DNA of 64,000 nt, from positions 62,001 through 126,000 of the forward strand of contig QAIB01000002.1 of assembly GCA_030418545.1 (NCBI GenBank), written 5' to 3'. Shown one piece after another: positions 50,510-58,208 of this stretch. Below the pieces are notes generated by a model. The model ran no database searches. It saw only the letters and a program-made list of their open reading frames with translations, and was not told where the DNA came from. The position numbers were made by a program, and so were the translations under genes. Position 1 is the stretch's first letter; every line of letters begins with the position of its first letter. The DNA is from Xenophilus aerolatus (GTDB lineage Bacteria; Pseudomonadota; Gammaproteobacteria; Burkholderiales; Burkholderiaceae_C).

Positions 50510-51781
50510 CTAGGCGCTGCGCGGTGCCGCCTCGCGCGCGTTGGCACGCTGCGCCAGCATGAACACCGGCATCGCCAGCAGCGCGCAGCCCGCCAGCACG
50601 GCGAAGGCCAGGCCGAAGTGGCCGCGTGCGCCGACCACCGCGTTGGCCACGCCGGCGCTCAGGGCCGCGCCGACGCCCTGCAGCGTGAGCACCAGGCCCA
50701 GCGCCAGGTTGTAGCGGCCGGTGCCGCGCGCGTAGCGCTCGACCATCAGCGGCGTGGCCACGCCCAGCGCGCCGGCCGCGATGCCGTCGAGCACCTGCAC
50801 GGGGATGTTGGCCCACACGCTGGGAAAGCCCCAGGCCAGCAGGCCGCGCACCGGCAGGATCAGGATCGCCAGGTAGACGAAGGCCGACAGGTCCAGCCGC
50901 CGGCTGCGCGCCACCCACAGCGCGACCGGCACCATGGTCAGCTGCGCGACGACGATGGCGACGCCGGTCCATAGCAGCGGCGCGGCATCGGGCTGCGTCG
51001 CGGCCAGGCGCTGGTTCAGCAGCGGCAGCATGGCCGCGTTGCCCAGGTGGAAGAAGGCGCAGGCCAGCGCGAAGAGCCACAGCGCGCGGTGCCGCAGCAG
51101 TTCGCCGAAGCCACCCGGGCCCTCGGCCTGGGGCGCGCCGGCGCCGGCCTCCACGCCGCGCGCCGCGGCATGGTCGATGTCGCCGGCGCGGATGGTGGCC
51201 AGGCACAGCAGGCTGCCCACGGCCATCACCGTCATCACCGACATCATCCAGGGCGCGCCGAACTGCTGTGCCACGATGCCCGCGCCCAGTGCCGACACGA
51301 TGTTGCCGGCGTGGCTCCAGGCCTCGTTGCGCCCGGTCTGCCGGCGCAGTCCCTCGCGCCGCGCCAGGCCCAGCGTGAGCGCGGCCAGCGCGGCGGCCAG
51401 CAGCGCGCCGGCCGCGCCCGCGACCACCTGCGAGCCGACCAGCAGCCACGGCGACTTCGTCATGAAAGCACAGCCGCTGCCCAGCGTGACCGCGACCACG
51501 GCAATGGCCATCAGCGCGCGCTTGGCAGTCCAGCCGTCGGCCCAGGCGCCGGCGAAGGGCGTCATGAGCACGGCGGCCAGCCCGCCGGCGGTCATCGTGA
51601 GGCCGATCAGCGTCTGGTCGACCCGCTGACTCTGCAGGTAAGTGGCGAGGAAGGGGCCGAGCCCGTCGCGCACGTCGGCCAGGAAGAAGGCCGTCCAGGC
51701 CAGGGCCGTGAGCGAGGCAGCGGCGGCGGGCGCGCCGGCCCGCCGGCCGGCCTCCAGGGGCATGGCGAGCGTGGTGGACAT
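50510..51781 (-). CDS. MFS transporter
   Basis: A 423-residue, 12-helix carrier of the drug:proton antiporter or MFS_1 type (FLADVRDGLGPFLATYLQSQ, FAGAWADGWTAKRALM in loop 2-3). It lies 25 bases after the module protein at 51807, so it is likely in the same operon as the two repeat-module proteins and the two-component system at 53320-56102. The substrate is not known. Confidence 0.85.
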   Translation of the reverse strand: MSTTLAMPLEAGRRAGAPAAAASLTALAWTAFFLADVRDGLGPFLATYLQSQRVDQTLIGLTMTAGGLAAVLMTPFAGAWADGWTAKRALMAIAVVAVTLGSGCAFMTKSPWLLVGSQVVAGAAGALLAAALAALTLGLARREGLRRQTGRNEAWSHAGNIVSALGAGIVAQQFGAPWMMSVMTVMAVGSLLCLATIRAGDIDHAAARGVEAGAGAPQAEGPGGFGELLRHRALWLFALACAFFHLGNAAMLPLLNQRLAATQPDAAPLLWTGVAIVVAQLTMVPVALWVARSRRLDLSAFVYLAILILPVRGLLAWGFPSVWANIPVQVLDGIAAGALGVATPLMVERYARGTGRYNLALGLVLTLQGVGAALSAGVANAVVGARGHFGLAFAVLAGCALLAMPVFMLAQRANAREAAPRSA

Positions 51782-51806
51782 GGACGGGCCTCTTCCTCGG
51801 CGCGGA

Positions 51807-52346
51807 TCAGCGGGCGGCCAGCGGCGTGCCGTTGACGGTGTGCGCCTCGATCACACGGCCACGGCCCGCGGCCAGCGGCTGCGACGGCCCTTCGGCGCGC
51901 ACGTGCTCGCCGGGCTGGAGGCCCAGTTGCGCGAAGCCTTCGGGCTTCAGGTGCACGAAGTCGCCGGTGTCGAGCACGACGCCGTTGGGAGCGCCGTGCC
52001 GGGCGTGGTTGATGCGCAGCACGCGGCCCTCGACCGGTCCGTCGTCGTGCACCGGTGCCACGGGGTGGCCGTCGACCTCGCTCAGGCGGTGGAAGTCGTA
52101 GACCACGTGCGCACCCTCGCCCTTGGGCGAGGCCGGGCGCTCGCTGCCTTCGACCGTGATGCGCTGGCCGGGCTCGAGTTGCGCGAAGGCGGCCGCGGCA
52201 GCGGTGTCGTGCTTGTCGAAGACGAACTGCGTGGGCACGCCGTCGGTGTCGATCAGCACGCCTTCGTGCTCGCCGCGCGGGCTGTAGATGAGGTGCTGGA
52301 AGCGGCCTTCGACCGACCAGACGTCGATGAGTGTGTCGTGGGGCAT
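51807..52346 (-). CDS. Cytosolic protein with two copies of an unassigned module
   Basis: A 179-residue protein without signal peptide. It consists of two repeats: residues about 10-85 (VEGRFQHLIYSPRGEHEGVLIDTDG ... GQRITVEGSERP) and 100-175 (VEGRVLRINHARHGAPNGVVLDTGD ... GEHVRAEGPSQP). The same pattern (GRV-x-R, G-x-x-x-GV-LD-x-G, L-x-PG-x-x-V-x-x-G) recurs in the exported neighbour. The pattern suggests a small beta-barrel (OB-like) fold. No catalytic residue is recognised. It is 61 bases downstream of that gene, likely in one operon. Confidence 0.7.
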   Translation of the reverse strand: MPHDTLIDVWSVEGRFQHLIYSPRGEHEGVLIDTDGVPTQFVFDKHDTAAAAAFAQLEPGQRITVEGSERPASPKGEGAHVVYDFHRLSEVDGHPVAPVHDDGPVEGRVLRINHARHGAPNGVVLDTGDFVHLKPEGFAQLGLQPGEHVRAEGPSQPLAAGRGRVIEAHTVNGTPLAAR

Positions 52347-52407
52347 GAGTGAATCTCGCAATGAAGACAGGATGGAAGGGACACGGGGCCACGGCGGCCC
52401 CGACAAG

Positions 52408-53175
52408 TCAGGCCGGGCGGCGGCGCGGGCCGGGGCGCGGTGCGTCGATGGGGCCCGAGAGCACCTCCTGCAGCGCCTGCTGCGTGGCGCCCAGGCGGGT
52501 CGCCTCGATGCCGGTGCCCAGGGGGCTGCGTGTGCCCCAGCCCTGCACGTAGAGCGGGGCACCGGGCTGCAGCAGGCCGCCGATCATGCGACCCACGTGC
52601 GGCGGGAAGCGCACCACGGTGCCGTCGTCGAGCAGCGCGCCATGCGCGTCGCCGCGGTCGTTGAAGAGCACGCGCGCGATGCGGCCGCCGGCGCTCATCG
52701 AGGCCAGCGCGCCCAGGGGGCGTGGCGGCGGAGGCAGGGCGCCGGGCGAGGGCGGCTGGTCGGTCACGGCGCGGCCGTTGGCGCGGATCTCCTGCGCCCG
52801 CAGCGCACCGGCATCGCCTGCACGCCAGCCGGTCGCGTCGATGCGGTCACCGACCCTGGCCAGTGCCGTCACGCTGGCCGAAAGATGCGGCGCGAAGGCG
52901 ATCTGGGTGCCGTTGTCCAGCAGCAGGCCGTCGGCCTCGCCGTTGGGGTTGACCAGCCAGCGTGCGACCTGGCCGCTCACGCTGGCCGTGGCCATCGGTG
53001 CCGGGGCCAGCGGGCCGCCCGGGGGTGGCGGCAGCGGGCCGGCCATGCCGGCGGGGTGAGGCATCGGGCCGCCGGGCGGTGCGGGTTGGGGCGCGGGCTG
53101 CGCGACTGCGAGGGCAGAGACTGCCATCAGGCCGGCCAGCAGGCTGGCGCGCAAGGAAGGAAGGGAAGTGGCCAT
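52408..53175 (-). CDS. Exported protein with two copies of the same module
   Basis: A 255-residue protein with a signal peptide (MATSLPSLRASLLAGLMAVSALAVA, cleavage near 25) and a Pro-rich spacer (APQPAPPGGPMPHP). Two modules follow, about residues 60-135 (GQVARWLVNPNGEADGLLLDNGT ... GDRIDATGW) and 160-235 (GRIARVLFNDRGDAHGALLDDGT ... GAPLYVQGWG), similar to each other and to those of the gene at 51807. A candidate sigma54 promoter precedes it. It may be periplasmic and act with the cytosolic partner; function unknown. Confidence 0.7.
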   Translation of the reverse strand: MATSLPSLRASLLAGLMAVSALAVAQPAPQPAPPGGPMPHPAGMAGPLPPPPGGPLAPAPMATASVSGQVARWLVNPNGEADGLLLDNGTQIAFAPHLSASVTALARVGDRIDATGWRAGDAGALRAQEIRANGRAVTDQPPSPGALPPPPRPLGALASMSAGGRIARVLFNDRGDAHGALLDDGTVVRFPPHVGRMIGGLLQPGAPLYVQGWGTRSPLGTGIEATRLGATQQALQEVLSGPIDAPRPGPRRRPA

Positions 53176-53207
53176 GGTGTGCTCCTTGAAGGGATGTGCC
53201 ATGGGCT

Positions 53208-53223
53208 TCCAAGACGCGTGCCA
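53208..53223 (-). promoter_or_regulatory. Sigma54 -24/-12 promoter candidate
   Basis: Read on the minus strand, TGGCACG-CGTC-TTGGA. The -24 half is a full match to TGGCACG, with correct spacing; the -12 half differs from TTGCA at one of the most conserved bases. Transcription would begin about 22 bases before the ATG at 53175, with an SD in between. It sits 97 bases downstream of the sigma54 activator gene. Confidence 0.5.
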
Positions 53224-53228
53224 AGGGC

Positions 53229-53244
53229 GATTTCCTTTGAAATC
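53229..53244. repeat. Inverted repeat upstream of the sigma54 promoter
   Basis: GATTTC and GAAATC are perfect inverted arms around CTTT, just upstream of the candidate -24 box. The location fits a binding site, but it is closer than usual for an activator. Confidence 0.35.
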
Positions 53245-53285
53245 AAGGACTTGCGTCTCCGACCCGCTCCGCGATCGGATGATGG

Positions 53286-53304
53286 CCGGACACCCCCTGT
53301 CCGG
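53286..53304. promoter_or_regulatory. Inverted repeat, activator site or terminator
   Basis: CCGGACA and TGTCCGG are perfect inverted arms around CCCCC, 63 bases upstream of the -24 box and 16 bases beyond the activator's stop. It could be an upstream activator site or a hairpin terminator of the activator gene; no T run follows on the minus strand. Confidence 0.45.
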
Positions 53305-53319
53305 AAACACGACAGCTTG

Positions 53320-54669
53320 CTAGTCGAGGCCGTGCTGTGTCAGCTTGGCGTACAGCAGCTGACGGTGGATGCCGAGCTGGCGCGCCGCCAGCGAGCGGTT
53401 GCCGCCCGCCTCGGCCAGGGCGTGACGCAGCAGCAGCTTCTCCAGCCGGTCGATCGCCTCGGGCAGGGTGCCCGCATACCAGTCGGCGGGCAGGGCGTCG
53501 GTGGCCGCAGCGCCGGGCGCGGGCGAGGCATCGGCCAGGTCCAGCTGGTGGATCACCGCGCCGCGCTGCAGCGCCTGGCAGCGCTCCATCGCATTGCGAA
53601 GCTCTCTGACGTTGCCGGGCCATCGATGGGCCAGCAGCGCGGCCGCGGCTTCGGGCGACAGGCGCTTGGCCGGGCCCGGCGCCGCCGCGATGCGCAGGAA
53701 GTGCTCGGCCAGCGGCACGATGTCGGCCAGGCGTTCACGCAGCGGCGGCAGATGGATGGCCAGCACGTCCAGGCGGTAGCGCAGGTCTTCGCGAAAGCGC
53801 CCGTCGGCCACGGCCTGCGCGAGGTCGCGGTGGGTGGCGGCCACCACGCGCACGTCCACCTTCTGCGGGCGGTGGCTGCCCACCGGCGTCACCTCGCCCT
53901 CCTGCAGCACGCGCAGCAGCTTGGCCTGCACGTCCAGCGCCATGTCGCCGATCTCGTCGAGCAGCAGCACGCCGCCGTCGGCCGCCTTGAAGCAGCCGGG
54001 CCGGTCGGCGACCGCGCCGGTGAAGGCGCCCTTCACATGGCCGAAGAGCTCGCTCTCGAGCAGCTCGCGTGGAATGGCCGCGCAGTTGACGGCGACGAAG
54101 GGTTGGGCCGCGCGGTCCGAATGGCGGTGCAGCGCGCGCGCCACCAGTTCCTTGCCGGTGCCCGTCTCGCCGACCACCAGCACCGGTGCGCGGCTGCCGG
54201 CGGCCAGGCCGATGCGCTTGTGCACCTCGCGCATGGCCTCGCTGATGCCGATCATCTCGCCATCGTCCGGCAAGGGGGCACGCTCGGGCGTGGCCGGCGG
54301 CGGTGCCGAGGCGGCCAGCGCGCGCCGCACCACCTCGATCACGCCGTCGCGGCTCACCGGCTTGGTGAGGTGGTCGAAGGCGCCCAGGCGCATCGCCTCG
54401 ATGGTGCCGGCGCTGCCGGCGTGCGCGGTGAGCACGACCACCGGCGGCAGGCGCGGCAGGGTGGCCTTCATCGCGGCCAGCGTCTGCAGGCCGTCCATGC
54501 CCGGCATGCGGTAGTCGAGGAAGACCAGGTCGAAGCGCTGCGTGGCGAGGCGCGCGAGGCCGTCCTCGCCGCGGTGTTCGACCGCCACGGCATGGCCCAG
54601 CCCTTCGAGCGTCTCGCGCAGCGAATCGGCGAAATCCGTGTCGTCGTCGACGATCAGCAGTGCTGCCAT
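53320..54669 (-). CDS. NtrC-type sigma54 response regulator
   Basis: A 449-residue protein: receiver domain (phospho-acceptor Asp52 in LVFLDYRMPG, Lys103), sigma54 AAA+ domain with Walker A GETGTGKE at 167-174, GAFTGA loop at 214-219 and Walker B LLLDEIGD, and a C-terminal Fis-type HTH (AGGNRSLAARQLGIHRQLLY). It is paired with the kinase at 54654, the genes overlapping by 16 bases. Downstream lies a -24/-12 promoter candidate, its probable target. The GAFTGA motif is intact, so it should activate sigma54 RNA polymerase. Confidence 0.93.
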   Translation of the reverse strand: MAALLIVDDDTDFADSLRETLEGLGHAVAVEHRGEDGLARLATQRFDLVFLDYRMPGMDGLQTLAAMKATLPRLPPVVVLTAHAGSAGTIEAMRLGAFDHLTKPVSRDGVIEVVRRALAASAPPPATPERAPLPDDGEMIGISEAMREVHKRIGLAAGSRAPVLVVGETGTGKELVARALHRHSDRAAQPFVAVNCAAIPRELLESELFGHVKGAFTGAVADRPGCFKAADGGVLLLDEIGDMALDVQAKLLRVLQEGEVTPVGSHRPQKVDVRVVAATHRDLAQAVADGRFREDLRYRLDVLAIHLPPLRERLADIVPLAEHFLRIAAAPGPAKRLSPEAAAALLAHRWPGNVRELRNAMERCQALQRGAVIHQLDLADASPAPGAAATDALPADWYAGTLPEAIDRLEKLLLRHALAEAGGNRSLAARQLGIHRQLLYAKLTQHGLD

Positions 54670-56102
54670 GGCATCTCCAGGATGAAGCGCGCACCGGGCG
54701 TGCCGGCCTCGTGGCGCAACTCGCCGCCGTGGGCGATCGCGACTTCGCGCGCCAGCGCCAGGCCCAGGCCCGTGCCGTCGGCGCGGCCGGTGCCGAAGGG
54801 CTCGAAGAGACGGCCGCGCACCGCCTCGGGTACGCCCTCGCCGTCGTCGGCGACACCCAGCACGAGCAGGCCGCGCGCCGCGTCGCCCTCGGCCCACAGG
54901 CGCACGCTGCCGCCGGGGCTGCGGGCGTGGCGCACCGCGTTGTCGAGCAGGTTGTCGACGGCGCGTCCCAGGTGCATGGGGTCGAAGACGGCACAGGTCG
55001 GCGTGCCTTCGGCCAGCACCAGCGCCACCTGGCGCTGCGCGGCCGATTCGGCGACCGTGGCCAGGCGTTCCTGCAGCCAGGGTTGCAGCGGCACCGCCTG
55101 CGGGTTCAGGTCCAGCGGCTGGACCAGCGCGAGCAGGCTGCGCACCACCGCGTCGAGCCGGTCGATCTGGCCGACGATGGTGCGCAGGGCGACGGCCTGC
55201 GTGCCGGCATCGGCCGCCAGCGCGTTCTCGGCCTTCAGGCGCATGGCGGCAATGGGGTTGCGGATCTCGTGCGCCACGGCCGAGGTCATGCGGCCCAGCG
55301 CGGCCAGCCGCAGGTCGCGGCTGCGCTGTGCCAGCGCGTCGCGGGCGGCCGCCTGTGCCTGCGCGAAGCGGGCCGCATAGCCGTTGTAGCTGGCGACGAT
55401 GCGGTCGAGCTCGTCCAGCCCGGTGCGCGCCAGCGTGGGCATGGTGTCGGCCGGCGCGGCGGCCAGGGCGGCTTCGAGCCCGCGCAGCCGCGCCCGGCCG
55501 CGGTACAGCAGCACCGCCAGCCACAACGCCGAGCACACGATCGCTGCCGCCAGCGCGCCCAGGCCCAGGCGCAGGCTGCCTTCCGCGGCGGCGGCACCGA
55601 GCTGGGTGCGCGTCATGGTCCAGGCGGCGGCGCCCGGCGCGGCAAGCGGGCAGGCCGCGACGATCAGCAGTTCGCGGCTGCCGCGCACCTGCTGCGTACG
55701 CAGGCGCTGCGTGCCCACGGCCTGCTGCGCCGTCTGCTCGATCAGCGCCTGCTCGGCCGCGGGCACGTCGGTCTTCACGCTGCTGCCTTCGTAGGTGGGA
55801 TAGGCGTACGCGCCGATGCCGCCCTCGGCCCGCCAGATGCCGCCTTCGACGTACGGCGCCTCGGTCAGCACCAGCTGCAGCAGCACGCGCGCCAGGTCCA
55901 GCCGCAGCGTGGCGGTGTCGGGCGCCGACTGCGCGTAGCGCTGCGCGAGCTGGTTGCAGCTGCCTTCGACGCGCGCACGGCCCAGCTCCAGCTGCATGGC
56001 GGGACTCAGCCGGTACAGCCCGAGCACCACCACGCCCAGCAGCAGGCACACGGCCAGCAGCAGGGCCCAGAACACGGCGAGTTGCAGCCTCAGGGAGCGC
56101 AT
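54654..56102 (-). CDS. Membrane sensor histidine kinase
   Basis: A 482-residue kinase with two helices (about 7-29 and 180-200) flanking a periplasmic sensor domain of about 150 residues; then a HAMP-like linker, H-box His278 (SAVAHEIRNPIAAM), N-box DNLLDNAVRHA and G2 GTGLGLALA. The sensor part has no recognised fold; it carries CNQLAQRYAQ and VEGGIW. It is the partner of the response regulator. Start ATG 56102 opens just before the first helix. Confidence 0.9.
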   Translation of the reverse strand: MRSLRLQLAVFWALLLAVCLLLGVVVLGLYRLSPAMQLELGRARVEGSCNQLAQRYAQSAPDTATLRLDLARVLLQLVLTEAPYVEGGIWRAEGGIGAYAYPTYEGSSVKTDVPAAEQALIEQTAQQAVGTQRLRTQQVRGSRELLIVAACPLAAPGAAAWTMTRTQLGAAAAEGSLRLGLGALAAAIVCSALWLAVLLYRGRARLRGLEAALAAAPADTMPTLARTGLDELDRIVASYNGYAARFAQAQAAARDALAQRSRDLRLAALGRMTSAVAHEIRNPIAAMRLKAENALAADAGTQAVALRTIVGQIDRLDAVVRSLLALVQPLDLNPQAVPLQPWLQERLATVAESAAQRQVALVLAEGTPTCAVFDPMHLGRAVDNLLDNAVRHARSPGGSVRLWAEGDAARGLLVLGVADDGEGVPEAVRGRLFEPFGTGRADGTGLGLALAREVAIAHGGELRHEAGTPGARFILEMPWQHC

Positions 56103-56249: not shown

Positions 56250-56942
56250 ATGAGCAGCCCCACCTCCGCCCCCACCGCCCTGCAGATCGACTTCGTGTCC
56301 GACGTTTCGTGCCCCTGGTGCGCCGTCGGCCTGGCCTCGCTGGAACAGGCGCTGGCGCGCGTCGGCCCCGAGATCGACGTGCACCTGCGCTTCCAGCCCT
56401 TCGAGCTCAATCCGCAGATGGTTCCCGAGGGCGAGGACTCCGTCGAGCACCTGCAGCGCAAGTACGGCATCAGCGAAGAGCAGGTGCGGGCCAACGGCGA
56501 ACACCTGCGCCAGCGCGGGCTGGCGGTGGGCTTTCCCTTCGACCTCGACAAGCGCAAGCGCGTGTGGAACACCTTCGACGCGCACCGCCTGCTGCACTGG
56601 GCCGAACTGGAAGGCGAGGCGCAGCAGCTGGCCCTGAAGAAGTCGCTGTTCAAGGCCTACTTCCTCGATGGCCTGAGCCCGGCCGACCATGAGCTGCTGG
56701 TGCGCCTGGCCGTGGACGCGGGCCTCGACGAATCGCGCGCCCGCGCCATCCTGGCCGGCGACGAGTACGCCCAGGAGGTGCGCGAGCGCGAGCGGCTCTA
56801 CACCGACGCCGGCATCCATTCGGTGCCGGCCATCGTCATCAACAACCAGCACCTGATCTCGGGCGGCCAGCCGCCGGAGGTCTTCGAGCGCGCGCTGCGC
56901 CAGATCGCCGGGGCCCAGCCGCCGGCGGTGATGAGCGCCTGA
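56250..56942 (+). CDS. DsbA/FrnE-family thiol oxidoreductase
   Basis: A 230-residue DsbA-like thioredoxin-fold protein with active-site CPWC at 21-24 (SDVSCPWC). FrnE-type marks: GISEEQVRANGEHL and GIHSVPAIVINN, with the cis-Pro VPA. There is no signal peptide, so it is cytosolic. Substrates in this family include polyketide-type molecules or stress targets; here unknown. It is followed at once by a strong intrinsic terminator. Confidence 0.9.
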   Translation: MSSPTSAPTALQIDFVSDVSCPWCAVGLASLEQALARVGPEIDVHLRFQPFELNPQMVPEGEDSVEHLQRKYGISEEQVRANGEHLRQRGLAVGFPFDLDKRKRVWNTFDAHRLLHWAELEGEAQQLALKKSLFKAYFLDGLSPADHELLVRLAVDAGLDESRARAILAGDEYAQEVRERERLYTDAGIHSVPAIVINNQHLISGGQPPEVFERALRQIAGAQPPAVMSA

Positions 56943-57023: not shown

Positions 57024-58208
57024 TCAGGCGCGTCGGCCGGCGTCGGCCAGTGCCGGTGCCGGGCGCTTGCCCGCCCGCTCGCGGGCCTCGAAGCGCGCCA
57101 CGGCCCAGGCCACCGCATAGAGCCACAGGAACACGCTGCCCAGCAGCGCCACGTCGGCCCACAGCGGCCGTGCGCGGTGGCCGAAGAGCGCCACCACGAT
57201 CAGCACCGCCACCAGGTGCGCGCAGAACACGGCCAGCGAGGCCGATCCCATCGTCTCGAGCCAGCGCGGCCGGGGCAGGTGCGACAGCCAGCCCGGGCCG
57301 AAGCGGAAGGCCACGATGCCGATGGCCGCCAGGTCGAGCAGGCGCAGCGGGCCGAGCCGCCACTTGTCGAACAGCAGGTTCAGCTCGGCATGCTCGCCGA
57401 AGGGCGCCTGGCCCCAGGGGCCGAGGTGGCGCCAGGCCAGGCAGCCCACGGCCACCACCACGGCGATCTGCACCACGCGGCGCGGGACGACGATCGGCCG
57501 CGCATCGGGCGCGTTGCGGCTGGCGCCCATCCACAGCCCGAAGAACCACAGGAACTGCCAGGCGAAGGTGTCGAAGGATCCGGTCTCGTTGAAGGGGATG
57601 GGGATGCCGAGCAGGCCCATCATCAGATGCTCGTGCAGCCACGGCGTCATGCCGAACTGCGCGCCGGCCCACAGCAGGGCGCTCAGCAGCATCGGCCGCT
57701 GCCAGCCGTGACGCAGCGCATAGGCCATGACCCAGGGGCTGAGCAGCATGAACAGGATGTACAGCGGCAGGATGTCCAGCAGGGCAGGCTGGTAGACCAG
57801 CAGCAGCGAGTACAAGAAGCCCTCGTGCGGATGCGCGAGGTAGTACTTGAGCAGGTCCTTGACCTGCGGTTCCTCGATGTGCAGGCCGATGGCCAGCGCG
57901 GTGATCACCGTGAAGAGGAAGAGCAGCAGTGCCGCCTGGCTCATGTAGATGCGCACGGCACGCTTCCAGAAGCCGCGGCGCATCGCATCCACCCCCTGCG
58001 TGTGGCCGATGCGGCCGTAGACCAGGCCCGAAACGAAGGCAGACAGCAGCACGAAGCCTTCAGCCGCCGACACGAAGCCGAAGGGCTGCCCCACCGGGTC
58101 GGTGAAGCGCGTGGGCACGTGCGTGATCGTCATCAGCACGAGCATCAGCCCGCGCACGGCGTCGATCTCCCAGTAGCGACGCGACGGGGGCGGTGCGGAA
58201 GCGCTCAT
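57024..58208 (-). CDS. opgC: OpgC-type membrane acyltransferase
   Basis: A 394-residue integral membrane protein with about ten helices of the OpgC family (the start RYWEIDAVRGLMLVLMTITHVPTRF and SAAEGFVLLSAFVSGLVYG are characteristic). OpgC succinylates osmoregulated periplasmic glucans; here no opgG/H is nearby, so a glucan or another acceptor is inferred. ATG 58208 has a weak SD. The 215-base gap upstream has no gene. Confidence 0.85.
   Translation of the reverse strand: MSASAPPPSRRYWEIDAVRGLMLVLMTITHVPTRFTDPVGQPFGFVSAAEGFVLLSAFVSGLVYGRIGHTQGVDAMRRGFWKRAVRIYMSQAALLLFLFTVITALAIGLHIEEPQVKDLLKYYLAHPHEGFLYSLLLVYQPALLDILPLYILFMLLSPWVMAYALRHGWQRPMLLSALLWAGAQFGMTPWLHEHLMMGLLGIPIPFNETGSFDTFAWQFLWFFGLWMGASRNAPDARPIVVPRRVVQIAVVVAVGCLAWRHLGPWGQAPFGEHAELNLLFDKWRLGPLRLLDLAAIGIVAFRFGPGWLSHLPRPRWLETMGSASLAVFCAHLVAVLIVVALFGHRARPLWADVALLGSVFLWLYAVAWAVARFEARERAGKRPAPALADAGRRA

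Follow-up and report, generated by a model that had tools for sequence, protein, structure and literature searches.

What does a sensor kinase with a sigma-54 activator of its own control when the genes behind it encode two small proteins of like build and a transporter? The question is raised by positions 50510 to 56102 of a 64,000-nucleotide stretch of Xenophilus aerolatus DNA (contig QAIB01000002.1, positions 62,001 to 126,000; hereafter the window), for which the initial annotation had proposed a sigma-54 two-component pair controlling twin module proteins and an MFS carrier. Comparison with homologous loci supported that proposal, since both the gene set and the layout of regulator sites and -24/-12 element were found to be conserved, and we consider it very probable from these sequence comparisons that the operon is under sigma-54 two-component control. 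Overall, the locus is probably a dedicated sigma-54 two-component export or detoxification operon, made up of the following genes.

54654..56102, minus strand: sensor histidine kinase of 482 amino acids with HisKA and HATPase_c domains; ATG at 56102, stop ending at 54654
53320..54669, minus strand: NtrC-type response regulator with receiver, sigma-54 AAA domain and Fis-type helix-turn-helix (HTH); ATG at 54669
52408..53175, minus strand: exported protein of 255 amino acids with a signal-peptide-like start, a Pro-rich linker and two OB-fold modules (predicted)
51807..52346, minus strand: cytosolic protein of 179 amino acids with two predicted OB-fold modules at about residues 9-91 and 105-167
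50510..51781, minus strand: MFS carrier of 423 amino acids, of the 'ADVRDGLGPFL' type, an operon member kept in relatives

As initially annotated, the kinase and regulator genes overlap by 16 bases, and the genes of the exported protein, the cytosolic protein and the MFS carrier follow on the same strand with short gaps. The overlap spans 54669-54654, and the gaps measure 61 bases between the first two of these three genes and 25 bases between the last two. The signal-peptide-like N-terminus of the exported protein was read from the sequence by eye, and no signal peptide was seen by eye in the cytosolic protein. Pfam matches of the regulator to Response_reg (2.3e-25), Sigma54_activat (2.9e-70) and HTH_8 (2.4e-9) place it in the NtrC-type two-component class, with which the promoter layout agrees at the level of sequence, and the organism's own genome holds one gene with a sigma-54 DNA-binding domain. 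Neither a sigma-70 promoter pattern nor an intrinsic terminator pattern was found between 50100 and 56400.

Conservation of the gene set in relatives

With the exported protein as query, 14 of the 200 genomes searched in the window's family gave matches, several of which were weak; with profiles, the counts were 7 of 399 for the order, 9 of 398 for the phylum and 43 of 200 for a different family within that order. A named scan yielded 64 homologous loci, including ones from Xenophilus, Pseudacidovorax, Variovorax, Acidovorax, Paracidovorax, Xylophilus, Delftia, Achromobacter, Xanthomonas, Rhodanobacter and one Nitrospira assembly; the nearest, in Xenophilus sp. E41, has operon genes 100% identical to those of the window. 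Among the 52 named loci with full flanks (the other 12 are cut by contig ends), kinase and regulator were present in 52/52, MFS in 50/52, a second OB gene in 46/52 (a count that includes a short remnant, L057) and an anion permease in 14/52, and by this comparison the initially proposed set of kinase, regulator, two module proteins and MFS carrier is conserved. In L018-L027, ten strongly matching genomes from the first family search that have wide flanks, the kinase, regulator, exported-protein and MFS genes stand together in every case (the MFS in pieces in L027), with the cytosolic-protein gene in 9/10 (truncated in L022) and, inside the group in 6/10, an anion-permease-like gene whose CitMHS name was taken from a homologue. 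When the Xanthomonas and Rhodanobacter loci were aligned, their second OB gene proved to be cytosolic in type, with MHW(V/L)DPDFLP, or a sequence close to it, not far from the start.

Plasmid records with a match numbered 20, and 8 of them were read. Two Paraburkholderia plasmids and one of Bradyrhizobium carry kinase, regulator, exported OB, cytosolic OB, MFS and an 'arsenic' or 'anion' transporter, some adding a DMT transporter, a metallophosphoesterase or a CHASE3 protein, and the Burkholderia stagnalis plasmid matches these as far as the MFS gene and then has a permease fragment. The Methylocystis plasmid has no cytosolic OB gene, that of Acidiphilium holds only kinase, regulator and exported OB, and the Caballeronia and Methylocapsa plasmids carry single OB genes without the kinase pair. 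A lone OB-tandem gene was also found in three loci of one genus with genomes of 2.0-2.5 Mb (L132, L133 and L134), with no kinase or regulator within the 14 kb read; by eye, the OB gene of L132 has a peptide-transporter-like gene on one side and ATP-synthase-like genes on the other. In Variovorax paradoxus 110B (L043, contig-cut), the 3.2 kb upstream hold neither kinase nor regulator, and insertion-sequence-transposase-like and aminoglycoside-adenylyltransferase-like frames (by eye, L043:1-3235) stand in their expected place; a perfect copy of the palindrome described below remains 143 bases before the exported gene.

Gene-order comparison thus points to the kinase pair and the exported OB gene as the steady core, with the transporters exchanged. 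The core of the operon is as initially proposed; its scope is wider in relatives, where an ArsB/CitMHS permease, DMT transporters and a metallophosphoesterase join it.

The control region

Four candidate control elements lie between the regulator and the exported-protein gene.

53298..53314, minus strand: regulator-site-like palindrome TGTCGTGTTTCCGGACA, with 2 mismatches to TGTCCG-N5-CGGACA
53276..53292, minus strand: second, weak palindrome copy TGTCCGGCCATCATCCG, with 4 mismatches, beginning 22 bases past the first
53241..53253, minus strand: IHF-like site CAAGTCCTTGATT
53208..53223, minus strand: -24/-12-like sigma-54 element TGGCACG-CGTC-TTGGA, 48 bases before the exported-protein ATG

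The TGGCACG-N4-TTGGA element of the initial annotation was located at 53223-53208, after the regulator and before the exported gene, its -12 part being TTGGA and not the usual TTGC. With a -24/-12 score built from the sigma-54 consensus, 62 of the 64 named loci were scanned (L092 and L095 have too little upstream DNA). In 60 of the 62 the best match begins 45-71 bases ahead of the assigned ATG, in 47 it reaches p<=0.05 against first-order shuffles, and the -12 dinucleotide is the usual GC in Delftia, Xanthomonas, Rhodanobacter and alphaproteobacterial loci.

The palindrome and the IHF-like site were counted in 57 regions, comprising the window and 56 loci. L033, which duplicates the window, was excluded, as was any locus in which no regulator was detected or in which regulator and target lie less than 30 or more than 700 bases apart. 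The 17-base palindrome TGTCCG-N5-CGGACA occurs with <=1 mismatch in 31 regions (0.0 expected from shuffles) and with <=2 mismatches in 55 (0.8 expected). A second copy (<=4 mismatches) starts 20-23 bases beyond the better copy in 36 regions (0.9 expected), a spacing equal to two helical turns; at each of four other spacing ranges a second copy was counted in one region or none. Between the palindromes and the promoter, the IHF-like sequence is exact in 29 regions (0.0 expected from shuffles), has 1-3 mismatches in Xanthomonas loci and is missing from five loci with a permease as first target gene. As the 57 regions share descent, these counts show conservation and not independent events.

The control layout was found in alpha-, beta- and gammaproteobacteria, including loci with kinase and regulator elsewhere. 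At the Paraburkholderia locus L107, whose kinase and regulator are distal and on the other strand, the exported gene keeps two palindromes and a -24/-12 element, and the exported genes of the Bradyrhizobium, Methylocystis and Acidiphilium plasmids likewise have a palindrome pair with -24/-12; all four pairs show 0-3 mismatches and lie 22 bases apart, as counted without a shuffled control. The Methylocystis MFS gene, which stands apart from the exported gene, has palindromes (2 and 4 mismatches) and a -24/-12 element of its own. At L114 the sites lie farther upstream of the assigned start, and no comparable site pair was seen, again without a shuffled control, upstream of the orphan OB genes L110, L113 and L132, which have no nearby kinase pair. 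Across the window's own genome the loose palindrome was not enriched (101 places per strand vs 106 for the reversed pattern), and the composite site (GGACA, 60-90 bases, TGGCACG-N5-TG) occurred at 2 places vs 4 for the reversed pattern, namely the window operon and a place reading as coding sequence by eye.

Predicted tandem OB-fold modules in both small proteins

The two small proteins had been noted for a repeated pattern, and profile comparison showed the repeat to be real, all four modules being related. Those of the exported protein are placed as follows.

52762..52995, minus strand: OB module 1 of the exported protein, residues 61-138
52489..52704, minus strand: OB module 2 of the exported protein, residues 158-229

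Module profiles matched within each protein (exported 1 v 2, E = 4e-24; cytosolic 1 v 2, E = 1e-6) and, for like modules, across the exported and cytosolic proteins (E = 4e-9 and 2e-12). The four module pairs themselves scored 36.9-119.4, and none of the 20 column-shuffled controls made for each pair scored above 18.5. Whole-protein profiles of the exported and cytosolic proteins with no sequence in both were also related (E = 1.3e-15). Both proteins are predicted to be tandem OB-folds, the predicted structures showing a barrel of five strands in which an alpha helix separates the third from the fourth.

The closest structural neighbours of the predicted folds are SSB and PriB, and two relatives, P0002 and P0005, have matches below cut-off (E 0.022 and 0.012) to PF01336, the 'OB-fold nucleic acid binding domain'. 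These resemblances suggest that the OB pair might bind nucleic acid as SSB and PriB do, a role that we consider highly improbable.

A known-family reading of the modules was rejected, as all Pfam and NCBIfam matches fell below the curated cut-offs, including those to DUF6424 (E 0.12, cytosolic) and to a trimethylamine-oxide demethylase model (E 0.03, exported). PADLOC and PHROGs gave no match for the module proteins at the limits used, and a PDB sequence search with the OB profiles returned only weak matches (designed beta-trefoils and other chains), which we took as chance. BOF (PF04076) was likewise rejected: no BOF match was obtained at E<=1, and profile-profile scores against 8 BOF sequences (10.8-13.8) were no better than those of the shuffled module-pair controls (14.4-18.5). 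DUF5666 (PF18914) gave no match at E<=1, and its best profile-profile score, from 5 DUF5666 domains only, was 20.9 over 27 columns against 18.5 for the best shuffle. The modules do map to a known fold, the OB-fold, though to no named family of known function. Genome G061 also encodes, outside the operon context, two short proteins (L028 and L031) that each match roughly one OB module and differ in their N-terminal part.

Exchangeable transporters

The MFS genes form two groups, 24 of the 60 detected being <50% identical to that of the window (best tblastn piece), and the window's own carrier had no PDB sequence match at E<=0.001. Partner transporters in relatives comprise CitMHS/ArsB permeases, DMT_YdcZ and DMT_6, with a cation-efflux protein and an HlyD-type protein as further exporter-like partners. 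The permease of L112 scored 174.9 bits against the NCBI ArsB model, below its cut-off of 457, and lay above the Pfam ArsB cut-off (114.1 v 22.2). A calcineurin-like phosphoesterase of about 370 residues with an extra C-terminal region recurs in the operon (L112:8164-9276, L250:8975-10090 and L091:10448-11581).

Such transporters bring up nutrient uptake, in which the kinase would sense an organic anion and the MFS and CitMHS proteins would import it. DctB/DctD drive dctA from a sigma-54 promoter in a similar way, CitMHS is the 'citrate transporter' family, the kinase and regulator are of general NtrC-family build, and metabolic genes flank some loci, a short-chain-dehydrogenase-like gene in 5 of 20, for example. 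Uptake is nevertheless difficult to reconcile with the exporter-like partners (ArsB-like permease, the 'putative inner membrane exporter' DMT_YdcZ, cation-efflux and HlyD-type proteins), and what lies between the core genes is the phosphoesterase and transporters with no recurring catabolic enzyme, as far as can be told from neighbours that were not systematically annotated. We consider uptake unlikely. The exporter-type partners and the phosphoesterase argue for detoxification rather than feeding, and export or detoxification is probably what the operon is for.

The sensor region and the possible role of the OB pair

The signal would enter through the N-terminal part of the kinase.

55503..56102, minus strand: kinase N-terminal sensor region of about 200 amino acids, with EGGxW-like and YPTYxGSxxKxDxPxAE-like motifs

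This region had no Pfam match and no PDB sequence match at E<=1. Its Cys49 and Cys151 are kept in 12 of 13 aligned kinases, the Nitrospira copy lacking them, and on account of this pair a metal, metalloid or redox signal may be suggested, as no more than a reasonable guess. Searched for by itself as a profile, the sensor region was matched in 7 of the 398 phylum genomes. OB matches were present as well in 6 of these; in the seventh, G726, the order is kinase, regulator, metallophosphoesterase, ArsB-like permease and DMT_YdcZ (two copies, one frame).

Divergence of the exported OB protein was compared with that of the sensor region in 31, 25 and 20 dereplicated or chosen loci. The partial correlation was r 0.39 (p 0.001) over 31 loci and 0.18-0.26 (p<=0.003) in the Comamonadaceae test, where the cytosolic OB protein tracked the sensor equally (0.264); in the same test the exported OB protein correlated with the MFS carrier (0.21-0.26, p<=0.004), and MFS v sensor gave -0.24 to -0.37. 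Such parallel divergence of OB proteins and sensor fits a shared ligand or a shared history, and is not evidence of contact.

We suppose that the OB pair serves in ligand binding, as a chaperone or as a kinase accessory. Binding of a ligand is a tentative assignment. As an accessory, the exported OB protein would be a feedback regulator or activator of the kinase and the cytosolic one its inner counterpart, with transport secondary. That the kinase-regulator pair lies near the exported OB gene in all 52 full-flank loci would agree with this (one-sidedly, the search having used that gene), as would the exchange of transporters and the presence of such a third component in known sigma-54 systems (QseG, PMC6075780; ZraP, PMC7657598). 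G726, however, has the kinase-regulator pair without an OB gene nearby, and the covariation of exported protein and sensor is equalled by that of the cytosolic protein, which is unable to touch the periplasmic face; an accessory role is accordingly doubtful. It is rather unlikely, too, that the OB proteins are matched two-sided binders of one toxic ligand, one at each face of the inner membrane, so that sensor, swappable exporters and OB pair would form one regulated hand-off circuit that can be refitted with different carriers.

Beside the kinase gene, and divergent from it, lies a FrnE/DsbA-like gene (by eye, 56250-56942), followed by an OpgC-like membrane protein gene (57024-58208); among the 64 named loci these neighbours were found only in the four closest, L033-L036. 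No Rfam family was matched in the 64-kb window.

Proposed mechanism

Under the export or detoxification reading, the kinase, through its envelope-facing domain, would sense a signal and phosphorylate the NtrC-type regulator, which would bind the palindrome pair two helical turns apart, the first palindrome lying about 75-90 bases upstream of the -24/-12 element. IHF would bend the DNA in many species, and the regulator would activate sigma-54 RNA polymerase, making transcription RpoN-dependent and yielding the exported OB protein, the cytosolic OB protein and the MFS carrier. A cell-stressing compound would then be moved out by the carrier, or in relatives by ArsB/CitMHS-type permeases and small DMT transporters. 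The OB proteins, one on each side of the membrane, would act on the same ligand or damage; they are probably binding or holding proteins that would buffer it and may report to the sensor.

Several observations weigh against this mechanism. In transport, CitMHS/ArsB and MFS proteins can import too. In gene content, 6 of the 52 full-flank loci are without the second OB gene and 2 without a detectable MFS, and G726 has neither the OB pair nor an MFS beside its kinase pair, with only weak sites upstream of the first gene. At the promoter, the window and the Comamonadaceae loci apart from Delftia have GG or GA as -12 dinucleotide, a good -24/-12 is missing at the assigned start of L136, and the second palindrome of the window is weak, a single match with 4 mismatches being at chance level. 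The genome counts of palindrome and composite site support no second target, although weak ones are possible. Finally, the inference that the exported OB protein contacts the sensor was dropped, given that its cytosolic twin tracks the sensor equally.

A sensor-regulated module recurs from alpha- to gammaproteobacteria, and one Nitrospira assembly holds a relative of it; an exported tandem-OB protein that bears no family name is nearly always part of the module, and the cytosolic twin usually is. The palindrome offers a direct handle for regulon mapping and for finding the inducer, and the OB pair a test case for whether a ligand or stress is handled by a matched protein on either side of the inner membrane. 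Several 'hypothetical' proteins beside 'MFS', 'arsenic' or 'anion' transporters would also gain a context.

Comparison with known systems

No description of the gene set was found among the top-ranked open-licence PMC papers, and homologues may be described under locus tags that are not searchable. Within the reach of these searches, three things are new: the family of tandem-OB proteins, its presence on either side of the membrane, and transporters that are exchanged behind a conserved sensor and regulator site. YgiW is a BOF (OB-fold) protein with a single OB domain. In Vibrio cholerae, the sensor kinase VC1639 and the VisP/YgiW homologue resemble the present system in the two-component control of a conserved periplasmic protein (PMC5636140). 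VisP/YgiW differs in that no relation of BOF to the present modules was found by profile comparison. The arsenic-oxyanion system AioX-AioS-AioR is sigma-54 dependent. It works likewise, but AioX is a periplasmic-binding protein and the targets are enzymes of arsenic metabolism, not OB proteins or carriers (PMC5908839).

ZraPSR of E. coli shares a few-target sigma-54 regulator, an exported protein under its control and a link to envelope stress; ZraP is described as a chaperone, however, and neither an OB fold nor a cytosolic twin is mentioned in the consulted passages of PMC7657598, which cites a reference whose title describes ZraP as repressing ZraSR. The E. coli system QseE-QseG-QseF (GlrKGR) differs from the present one in that QseG is an outer-membrane lipoprotein and QseF drives glmY and rpoE, and no OB pair or transporter operon is named in the abstract of PMC6075780. 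The two have in common a kinase, a sigma-54 regulator and an exported third protein, with QseG stimulating QseE and QseF binding upstream activating sequences, as is proposed here for the regulator (PMC6075780).

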